Below are positions 32,682 to 55,756 of a stretch of 64,000 bases of DNA, piece by piece. Each line of letters opens with the position of its first letter. Position 1 is the stretch's first letter. Origin of the DNA: Pontibaca methylaminivorans (lineage in GTDB: Bacteria; Pseudomonadota; Alphaproteobacteria; Rhodobacterales; Rhodobacteraceae); assembly GCF_900156525.1 (NCBI RefSeq), contig NZ_FTPS01000001.1, forward strand, positions 1,116,001 through 1,180,000. The letters run 5' to 3'. Made by a program: the position numbers and the translations under genes. The notes beneath the pieces are model-generated. The model made no database searches, had not been told where the DNA came from, and saw only the letters and a list, made by a program, of their open reading frames with translations.

Positions 32682-34727
<2,046 letters not shown>

Positions 34728-34865
34728 GGATCGTCCTTCGGCTGGATTTGGAAAAAGCGCGAAAAGCCGCACCCGGCGCCTCTGCCGGATGCGGCCTCAT
34801 TCGATGAGAATATGTCGTTGCCCCCTGCGCGAGGCAGGGTCAGCCTGTTGCGGTTGCGCGCGTGA

Positions 34866-36211: not shown

Positions 36212-36613
36212 TCAGAGTCCTTCCCAGATGCAATCAGACGATTGGGGAAGAAAGCTTTCAAAAAGCTGCGCAATTCCGGAAGCGGGCTCACCGAAAGGGG
36301 TTTCGATTTCGGAAAAGGAAATCACGATGCGCGCGGGGTCGAGCCCGTAGGCGGCCATATAGGGCAGCGCCACCTCCTTGCAGAGAAACGCCGTGTCGGC
36401 GGCAGAGTCCTCCGCATCCGCCGCCCCCATTTCAGGGGCAATGAAACGAAACCGCAGCCAGAGTTCGCCGGGCGCATCATCCGTCAGCACCTCGTGCAGC
36501 TCGACCGGCTGGCCGGACGGCACGGCATAGGGCCCGGAAGCCATCGCCGCCGGTGCCGCCAGCAGAACCGCCAGGACCGCCGCCGTCGAGACAGCGGAAG
36601 CCGCAACCGACAC
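36212..36613 (-). CDS. DUF6497-like exported protein
   Basis: A product of about 133 residues from a GTG at 36613, giving a good signal peptide (MSVAASAVSTAAVLAVLLAAPAAMA). A GTG at 36673 would instead overlap pccB by 31 bases; neither has a strong Shine-Dalgarno, so the start is uncertain. The mature part (PVELHEVLTDDAPGELWLRFRFIAPEM ... VALPYMAAYGLDPARIVIS ... CIWEGL) resembles DUF6497, known mainly from Rhodobacteraceae. It directly follows pccB. Function unknown. Confidence 0.75.
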   Translation of the reverse strand: MSVAASAVSTAAVLAVLLAAPAAMASGPYAVPSGQPVELHEVLTDDAPGELWLRFRFIAPEMGAADAEDSAADTAFLCKEVALPYMAAYGLDPARIVISFSEIETPFGEPASGIAQLFESFLPQSSDCIWEGL

Positions 36614-36642
36614 CAGCGCGGACGCCGAAGCCGGGACAGCCG

Positions 36643-38175
36643 TCAGAGCGGAATATTGTCGTGCTTTTTCCACGGATTGCTCAGCTTCTTGTTGCGCAGC
36701 GAGGCAAAGGCGCGGCAAACGCGCTTGCGGGTCGAGCGGGGCTGGATCACCTCGTCGATAAAGCCGCGCTCGGCCGTCACGAAGGGGTTGGCGAAGCGTT
36801 CTTCATAGCTCGCGGTATGCTGCGCGATCTTTTCCGGGTCGCCAAGGTCGGCACGGTGGATGATTTCGGTCGCGCCCTTGGCGCCCATCACCGCGATTTC
36901 CGCCGTGGGCCAGGCATAGTTGAAATCGCCGCGCAGGTGCTTGGAAGCCATCACCACATAGGCACCGCCATAGGCCTTGCGGGTGATGACCGTGACCTTC
37001 GGCACCGTCGCCTCGCCATAGGCATAAAGCAGCTTGGCCCCGTGCTTGATGACGCCGCCATGTTCCTGACCGGTGCCCGGCAGGAAACCCGGCACGTCGA
37101 CGAAAGTGAGGATCGGAATTTCGAACGCATCGCAAAAACGCACGAAACGCCCGGCCTTTCGCGCCGAATCGATGTCAAGGCAGCCGGCAAGCACCATCGG
37201 CTGGTTGGCGACGACCCCGATGGTGCGCCCTTCGAGCCGGATGAAACCGGTAATGATATTCTTGGCGAATTCGGCCTGGATTTCGTAGAAGCTGCCCTCG
37301 TCGGCGACCTTCTCGATCAGTTCCTTCATGTCGTAGGGCGTGTTCGCATTGCTCGGAATGAGCGTGTCGAGGCTCGGCTCGATCCGGCCGGGATCGTCGA
37401 AGAACGGACGGATCGGCGCCTTGTCGCGGTTGTTGAGCGGCAGCAGGTCGATCAGCCGGCGCACCTCGGCCAGCGCCTCGACGTCGTTCTCGAACGCCGC
37501 GTCGGCCACGCTCGACTTGCGGGTATGGGTCGAGGCCCCGCCGAGTTCCTCGGCGCTCACCACCTCGTTCGTCACCGTCTTGACCACGTCGGGGCCGGTC
37601 ACGAACATGTAGGACGTGTCCTTCACCATGAAGATGAAATCGGTCATGGCCGGGGAATAGACTGCCCCGCCGGCACAGGGCCCCATGATGACGCTGATCT
37701 GCGGCACGACGCCGCTGGCCATGATGTTGCGCTGGAACACCTCGGCATAGCCGGCAAGGCTGGCCACGCCCTCCTGGATCCGCGCGCCGCCCGAATCGTT
37801 CAGCCCGATCACCGGGGCGCCGTTCTGCACCGCCATATCCATGATCTTGCAGATTTTCTGCGCATGGGTTTCCGAAAGAGAGCCGCCGAAGACGGTGAAA
37901 TCCTGGCTGAACACATAGACCATGCGCCCGTTGATCGTGCCCCAGCCGGTAATCACCCCGTCCCCGTAGGGGCGCTGTTCGTCCATGCCGAAATCGGTGC
38001 AGCGATGGGCGACGAACATGTCGAATTCCTCGAAACTGTCGTCGTCGAGAAGCAGCTCGATCCGCTCCCGCGCGGTGAGCTTGCCGCGCCCGTGCTGGGC
38101 GTCGATGCGGCGCTGGCCGCCGCCGAGCCGCGCCTCGTGGCGGCGATCTTCGAGCTCCTGCAGAATGTCTTTCAT
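36643..38175 (-). CDS. pccB: Propionyl-CoA carboxylase beta subunit (carboxyltransferase)
   Basis: A 510-residue carboxyltransferase with two crotonase-like halves. The N half has the acyl-CoA-binding blocks [19 protein letters not shown] and [13 protein letters not shown]. The C half has [25 protein letters not shown] and [27 protein letters not shown], with Asp consistent with propionyl-CoA preference, and ends in the typical [11 protein letters not shown] tail. It is divergent from pccR across a 179-nt gap containing six GCAAAT repeats. Confidence 0.98.
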
Positions 38176-38243
38176 GGCATAGGCCCCCTGTTCGGTTTGC
38201 GCGCACATTATGCGGAGGCCGCACGGAACCAAAGGGGAAATGG

Positions 38244-38297
38244 GCAAATTTGCAAATTCATGCAAATCAGGATATTGCAAATCGCAAATATGCAAAT
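38244..38297. promoter_or_regulatory. Cluster of six GCAAAT motifs, putative PccR operator region
   Basis: Six direct copies of GCAAAT start at 38244, 38252, 38262, 38277, 38284 and 38292 (spacings 8, 10, 15, 7, 8). GCAAATTTGC at 38244-38253 and TTTGCAAA at 38249-38256 are perfect palindromes. The cluster lies in the pccB-pccR divergent gap. PccR of Rhodobacter sphaeroides is known to regulate pccB, so operator function is a strong inference. The AT-rich block stands out against GC-rich surroundings. Confidence 0.8.
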
Positions 38298-38354
38298 TAC
38301 ACAACCGCGGGCGCTGCCGCCCAAGCCCGGACCGCAGCCACCGCGGGAATGCCA

Positions 38355-39749
38355 ATGGCCGTTCAGAAACTCTATGCCGGTGCGCGGCTGCGCGAGATGC
38401 GTGGCCAGTTCCAGCTGACACAAAAGGATTTCGCCGCCAAGCTCGGCGTCTCCCTGCCCTATCTCAACCAGATGGAAAACAATCACCGCCCGGTCAGCAC
38501 CACGGTGGTTCTGGCGCTGGCGCGCGAATTCGGCATCGACGTGACCGAACTGTCCACCGGCGACAGCGAACGCATGGTCAGCGATCTGCGCGAGGCGCTG
38601 GCGGATCCGGTGTTTGCCGATGCGATGCCCCCGCTCGCGGACCTGCGGCTTGCGGCATCGAACGCGCCGGCGCTCGCGCGGGCCTTCATCGAACTGCACC
38701 GCGCCTACCGCCAGACCCACGAGCGCCTTGCCTCGCTCGATGAGGCGCTGGGGCGCGAGGATACCCGCCTGCAGCCGAGCCCCTGGGAAGAGGTGCGGGA
38801 TTTCTTCCATTACTGCGACAACTATATCGACGCGGTCGACCGCGCCGCCGAAAGCTTTGCCCAGCGCGCCGGGCCCGACATCCGCGCCGGAACGCTGCGC
38901 CATCTCGCCACCAGCGGGGTGAGCGTCGTCTTTGCCGAGACCGGCCGGCTGCGAAGCTATGACGCGGAAAGCCGGGAATTGCGCCTTTCGGCCCGCACCG
39001 CGCCCTCGACCCAGCTGTTCCAGATGCTGCTGCAAAGCGCGCTGCTGGATCAGGACAAGCTGCTCGAGGCAACGCTCGACCTTGCCCGGTTCCAGAGCGA
39101 TGCGGCGCGCTCCATCGCCAAGCTGGGGCTTGCCAACTATTTCGCCGGCGCGGCGCTCATGCCCTATGGGGCCTTTCTCGAGGCCGCCGAAAGCTGCCGT
39201 CACGACCTCGAGATCCTCGCCACCCGTTTCGGCGCCTCGATCGAACAGGTGGCGCACCGGCTTTCGACGTTGCAGCGCCCCGGCGCCAAGGGGATCCCGT
39301 TCTTTTTCGTACGCGTCGATCAGGCCGGCACGATCACCAAGCGCCACAGCGCCACGCGGCTGCAATTTGCGCGCTTCGGCGGCGCATGCCCGCTCTGGAA
39401 CGTGCATCGCGCCTTTGAAACGCCGGGGCGTTTCCTGCGCCAACTGGCCGAGACGCCGGACGGGGTGCGCTATATCATCCTTGCGCGCAACGTGTCCAAA
39501 CCGGGCGGCACATGGGGCGCGCCGGTGCGGCGCTATGCGATCTCGCTTGGCTGCGAACTGCGCCATGCCTCGTCGCTGGTCTATGCCGATGACCTTGACC
39601 TCGGCAATACCGCGGCTTTCGAGCCGATCGGCATTTCCTGCCGCATCTGCGAGCGGACCAATTGCCATCAGCGCTCGGTGCCGCCGCTGGAGCGGCGCCT
39701 GTCCATCGACGCCAATGAACGCGGCGTGCTGCCCTACCGGATCGAATGA
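38355..39749 (+). CDS. pccR: Short-chain fatty acyl-CoA regulator PccR (XRE HTH, ScfR family)
   Basis: A 464-residue ScfR-family regulator. Residues about 8-62 form an XRE helix-turn-helix ([28 protein letters not shown]). A long helical region follows, then the family C-terminal domain with the cysteine cluster [12 protein letters not shown]. In R. sphaeroides PccR senses propionyl-CoA-related acyl-CoAs and controls pccB. Its divergence from pccB and the GCAAAT cluster between them match that arrangement. An ATG two codons upstream (38349) is an alternative start. Confidence 0.92.
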
Positions 39750-54492: not shown

Positions 54493-55668
<1,176 letters not shown>

Positions 55669-55756
55669 CGCCTTTGCGCCCTTTTTGCCATGGTCGGGTC
55701 GTGCGGCGACCCGGTTTGCTTCACCGCGCGCCACATATTGAGTTCAGGAAGGAAAA

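Follow-up and report, generated by a model that had tools for sequence, protein, structure and literature searches.

Six copies of GCAAAT are arranged within 54 bp (38244..38297) between the divergently oriented genes pccB and pccR of Pontibaca methylaminivorans. This array is most probably (rough probability 0.87) an operator, at the pccB promoter, of PccR, which regulates propionate breakdown; it is organized in two boxes, through which pccB would be activated when the CoA ester of propionate accumulates. Five of the six word positions recur in a nearly fixed register in relatives, and the array stays with pccB even where pccR lies on another contig and co-occurs with PccR. The names pccB and pccR were taken from the literature and from a preliminary description of this DNA.

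The array and its surroundings

The array is located in the pccB-pccR gap of the window, that is, the whole stretch of 64,000 nucleotides analysed. On its left, the minus-strand gene pccB (36643..38175) encodes the carboxyltransferase subunit of propionyl-CoA carboxylase (PF01039, E 7.9e-198), and beyond it lies pccA (32682-34769, minus strand), with biotin carboxylase, PCC_BT and biotinyl domains. Between the two genes, window positions 36212-36715 on the minus strand hold a frame whose residues 54-166 match a DUF6497 domain; this frame overlaps the end of pccB, and its true start is therefore probably further in. On the right, pccR (38355..39749, plus strand) encodes an ScfR-family regulator with HTH_3, Peptidase_M78 and ScfRs domains. 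Its start is most likely 38355 and not 38349, because a start codon is found at the position of 38355 in 140 of 144 sequences and at that of 38349 in 2 of 144.

The preliminary description had reported six direct copies of GCAAAT, two palindromes and a high AT content, and all of these were confirmed. The copies start, on the plus strand, at 38244, 38252, 38262, 38277, 38284 and 38292, so that the reported spacings of 8, 10, 15, 7 and 8 are correct. A seventh GCAAAT lies on the minus strand at 38248-38253 and overlaps copies 1 and 2, and for this reason the two palindromes, GCAAATTTGC (38244-38253) and ATTTGCAAAT (38248-38257), overlap and share bases. The array has a G+C content of 31%, compared with 57% for the gap and 66% for the window. 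Counted from the first base of the array, the words of the predicted operator stand at offsets 0, 8, 18, 33, 40 and 48. Box 1 (GCAAATTTGCAAAT; 38244..38257) comprises copies 1 and 2 and includes the palindrome TTTGCAAA at 38249-38256, which is the core expected upstream of pccB in a PccR operator. Copy 3 occupies 38262..38267 (plus strand), and box 2 (38277..38297, plus strand) comprises copies 4, 5 and 6 at offsets 33, 40 and 48.

The six-copy array is well beyond chance. The maximum number of GCAAAT copies per 54 bp was two across 100 second-order Markov copies of the window, and the 173-bp gap held at most two copies in 20,000 base shuffles and at most five, reached once, in 20,000 first-order Markov strings. 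GCAAA-N3-GCAAA occurs four times in the 2.65-Mb genome, twice inside the array. A whole-genome search for three GCAAA words with gaps of up to 20 gave six matches, four of which overlap within the array. Each of the two remaining places has just one triple, and two matches were obtained with the reversed pattern as a control. One of these places, at window positions 55661-55688 on the minus strand, has three GCAAA in 28 bp, and the reversed control matches as many as both non-array places together.

Nine other TTTGCAAA places in the genome were read in eight stretches, and for eight of them there is no additional exact half-site up to 60 bp away. A wider PccR regulon was not found among these exact TTTGCAAA places. 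In one stretch (L202:601-617), TTTGCAAA is accompanied by a GCAAA at a distance of 9 bp; judged by eye, the pair apparently falls within a coding frame of the minus strand. This is probably chance, and no tie of the site to propionate genes was established. When the gap was used as a query against plasmids, only carboxylase coding matches were retrieved, in four Shinella plasmids.

Conservation of the layout and co-occurrence with PccR

A total of 109 distinct pccB-upstream regions were kept from 195 loci (L001-L195), after loci with too short a flank, repeat stretches of the same genome and loci with pccB elsewhere were left out. Of these, 107 regions, including the window, were anchored at the TTTGCAAA upstream of pccB or, failing that, at its closest variant there, and two (L023 and L025) were dropped for want of a usable anchor. 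Owing to how the regions were fetched, this sample is tilted toward loci with pccB near pccR. Offset 0 stands at a median of 68 bp from the pccB start.

Among the 107 anchored regions, which are related by descent so that the counts are not independent events, GC.AA is found at offsets 0, 8, 18, 33, 40 and 48 in 79, 101, 9, 50, 77 and 85 regions, respectively. The counts at offsets 0 and 8, which for GCAAA are likewise 79/107 and 101/107, are partly fixed by the anchoring, and those at 33, 40 and 48 are independent of it. Elsewhere, the GC.AA background averages 0.9 per offset, with the largest value (20) at offset -16. No more than 5/107 regions carried the word at offset 33, 40 or 48 in 1000 within-region base shuffles, and a similarity-thinned subset retained it at these offsets in 44, 69 and 74 of 94 regions. 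Slippage is small: GC.AA is absent at offsets 39, 41 and 47 and occurs at 34 in one region, at 49 in five and at 32 in nine.

The common layout is thus that of the window, with the exception of offset 18. This position reads GGCAA in 15/107 regions, and copy 3 as exact GCAAA is present in only 8/107, the window included. Exact GCAAA at copy 4 is found in 18/107. The window alone has exact GCAAA at all six offsets; the same-genus locus L137 and L078 have five. Conservation of the copies and their spacing had been set as a test of the array in the preliminary description. Five of the six positions pass it, recurring in a nearly fixed register, and copy 3 (38262) does not. The proposal that the array is more than a single dimer site is borne out by the same five positions.

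Of 394 genomes sampled from the family, 324 yielded a PccR orthologue (E 1e-130 or better), and a genome with no match at E 1e-130 was treated as PccR-less. Twenty of the 70 PccR-less genomes were tested; 17 have a pccB match and three do not. Within the stretch of up to 250 bp upstream of pccB, TTTGCAAA is absent in all 17, and the best lattice score among them is 2 of 6 (L239 and L246).

For comparison, 12 PccR-containing genomes in which the pccB start fell outside the first fetched stretch were searched. Eleven have pccB, G025 giving no match, and ten are usable, since the pccB 5' end of G136 is off the contig. TTTGCAAA is present upstream of pccB in nine of these ten. The exception, L259, has no exact TTTGCAAA there and a lattice score of 4, and L258 has TTTGCAAA with a score of only 2 of 6. 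Six of the ten have pccB and pccR on one contig, a few kilobases apart; the other four have them on different contigs, and all of these four keep TTTGCAAA at pccB. Among the genomes searched, G002, a member of the same genus, has pccB with the array on contig C5 and the MFS transporter gene with pccR on C11 (L252, L212); its lattice score is 5, and a GCAAA is also found at the place of copy 3.

PccR had been named as the binder in the preliminary description, and the conservation of the layout together with its co-occurrence with a PccR orthologue lends good support to PccR as the predicted binder. Some PccR-less genomes contain ScfR paralogues of about 40% identity. Such paralogues were considered as a second source of the layout and dropped: none of 16 stretches upstream of ScfR paralogues (35-43% identity, various genomes) carries TTTGCAAA, which left nothing to compare; two carry TTCGCAAA. 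The true operators of these paralogues may lie elsewhere.

The regulator, the candidate promoter and readings of the array

Neither a protein search nor PF09856 found any ScfR-family protein in the genome besides PccR. The regulator scores above the cut-offs of PF01381, PF06114 and PF09856, corresponding to an N-terminal HTH, a Peptidase_M78-like part and the C-terminal ScfRs domain, and its residues 71-464 are related to the solved MtPrpR. Its score against the NCBIfam RamB equivalog is 431.8 bits, below the cut-off of 700, so it is not identified as RamB. The ligand-gate residue and Fe-S ligands of MtPrpR are described in the accessible text of PMC6765138. PccR residues C347, C431, C434 and C439 align with the Fe-S cysteines (C-X2-C-X4-C plus one upstream) and are thus putative cluster ligands. 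The bulky aromatic W146 aligns with the gate residue Phe155 (PMPFEEVRDFF), whose position in MtPrpR was inferred from M153 and E156 named in that text.

A candidate pccB -35 element, CTTTGG, lies at 38229..38234 on the minus strand, where each base of the plus-strand AAAG at offsets -13 to -10 is kept in 71-94% of regions. For the candidate -10 element, TAATGT (38205..38210, minus strand; consensus TATGGT), 86-87% of regions share the plus-strand T at offset -35 and A at -34. On the pccB strand, the conserved bases are CTTTGG at offsets -10 to -15 and TATGGT at -34 to -39. A scan of the gap with a sigma-70 consensus found no promoter. With these candidate elements, box 1 would lie 9 bp upstream of the -35, a usual place for an activator.

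We infer from this arrangement that several GCAAA words, grouped in the two boxes, are contacted by PccR, which is probably tetrameric, as is the related MtPrpR. Box 2 would be placed about three helical turns further from the candidate -35 than box 1, the distance being 33 bp from offset 0 to 33 and 32 bp from offset 8 to 40. Four DNA-binding heads are plausible because MtPrpR is a tetramer according to the available part of PMC6765138. As propionyl-CoA, the presumed ligand, rises, PccR held at the boxes would activate pccB. A point against this model is that boxes 1 and 2 are similar, not identical.

The words could instead belong to an AT-rich promoter element, a slippage repeat or the sites of another regulator. 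The array is indeed AT-rich and beside the promoter region, and the word is short. Such origins are nevertheless very improbable, given a spacing that is irregular yet nearly fixed across many genera, the absence of TTTGCAAA upstream of pccB in all 17 PccR-less genomes with a pccB match and the scarcity of GCAAA triples elsewhere in the genome. A narrower reading keeps PccR as the binder and restricts function to two boxes, copies 1-2 and copies 5-6, with copies 3 and 4 as functionless decoration. The low frequency of exact GCAAA at both copies agrees with it, as does Paracoccus RamB, which works with two boxes as far as described in the accessible part of PMC10370305. However, GC.AA at offset 33, the position of copy 4, recurs in about half of the regions against a background averaging below one per offset, and we place this reading on the unlikely side. 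The operator model with copy 4 as part of box 2 is preferred.

Locus arrangement and comparison with known systems

In 102 of the 109 loci, pccB and pccR have an MFS transporter gene between them, as in L032, where it encodes an MFS_1 transporter of 404 aa; none was found in seven loci, including the window. The conserved place of this gene suggests a functional connection of the transporter to propionate or methylmalonyl-CoA metabolism. In 10 of the 17 PccR-less genomes (L235-L238, L240-L242, L244-L246), an MFS-like gene, recognized by similarity, is still around pccB, and the transporter may therefore outlive the regulator. The genome of the window yielded no orthologue of the MFS gene, the best match having 29% identity. 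The MFS gene adjoins pccR in both sampled same-genus relatives; together with the poor match here, this makes a loss of the gene in this lineage the most likely explanation.

The regulator gene usually has sites of its own. When 144 distinct sequences upstream of pccR were compared, the 60 bp next to the start contained TTTGCAAA in 130 of them and a half-site of some kind in 141. The commonest spacing of these pccR-proximal sites is 30 (50 sequences), followed by 22 plus 8 (18 sequences). The first site often falls in the apparent core promoter and the last near the start codon, which suggests autorepression. The window departs from this pattern: the 57-bp stretch before pccR (38298..38354) is without the usual TTTGCAAA, and no GCAAA or TTTGC is found within 55 bp of pccR. 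Only three of the 144 sequences (the window, L005 and L179) lack a half-site within 55 bp. The array was also considered as belonging to pccR in general; this was rejected, since it stays with pccB even when the two genes are on different contigs.

The preliminary description had suggested that the array may control both divergent promoters. As a usual role this does not hold, given the intervening MFS gene, the separate pccR sites and the split loci of G002, but it is possible in this genome: the MFS gene and pccR's own site are both missing, and pccR may therefore share the pccB array. With the transporter gene and the separate operator missing in this lineage, pccR stands beside the array. 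That the array here controls both genes, the operator of pccR having been lost along with the MFS gene, is a tentative reading that falls somewhat short of even odds. It is favoured by the end of the array lying 57 bp before the pccR start, by the rare lack of a pccR-proximal half-site, by the missing MFS orthologue and by offsets 18, 40 and 48, whose distances of 22 and 8 match a common spacing of pccR sites. This match may be coincidence, however, and the same-genus genome G001 has copy 3 yet keeps the MFS gene and a pccR-proximal site. No pccR promoter was recognized, and the array accompanies pccB also in the four genomes with pccR on another contig. A further step is unlikely: these losses would have rewired the circuit, so that pccR, formerly autoregulated through sites of its own and probably negatively, now shares the control exerted by the pccB array, possibly as a positive feedback on propionyl-CoA, with the six exact copies sharpened for double duty.

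Control of pccB by PccR has already been published, and the array illustrates well a type of switch that is already known. The PccR motif of R. sphaeroides, in the work of Carter and Alber from 2015, is reportedly TTTGCAAA-X4-TTTGCAAA. That spacing is not found here, where there is one full TTTGCAAA and no two copies 12 bp apart. The PccR-pccB system of Cereibacter (Rhodobacter) sphaeroides otherwise resembles the present one in the kind of regulator, the target and the TTTGCAAA core upstream of pccB. That PccR controls pccB in this species is stated in the accessible part of PMC12632250 (citing Carter and Alber 2015), and control of pccB or its pathway in that of PMC10370305 (citing the same work).

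Two further systems invite comparison, each as far as described in the accessible text of its source. The MtPrpR site at prpD-prpR of Mycobacterium tuberculosis has a TTTGCAAA core in a 25-bp footprint (PMC3420887). It shares with the array an ScfR-family protein and this core, but it is shorter, consists of two 8-bp palindromes one base apart and serves a methylcitrate cycle target (PMC3420887). RamB of Paracoccus denitrificans recognizes two nearly identical boxes separated by an 18-bp spacer, and was studied with an 80-bp probe with 17-bp ends (PMC10370305). The boxes derived from this probe are 14 bp long, which gives a period of 32 bp, the same as from offset 8 to 40 here. RamB is an activator and needs both boxes; its target and ligand are different (PMC10370305), and the two sites are likened by spacing, not by box letters. 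In spacing, the 32-33 bp period fits a possible RamB-type arrangement, but the boxes here are only similar to each other. A literature search, which covered little of the subscription literature and is weak evidence of absence, found no report of the six-word layout or of the loss of the MFS gene.

The array offers a precise and testable layout for how an ScfR-family regulator may read DNA, with several GCAAA words in a nearly fixed register over 54 bp. Such a layout is more readily explained by a tetramer with several heads than by a single dimer. The locus is also a natural experiment, in which the self-control of a metabolic regulator may have been altered by the removal of a single gene.
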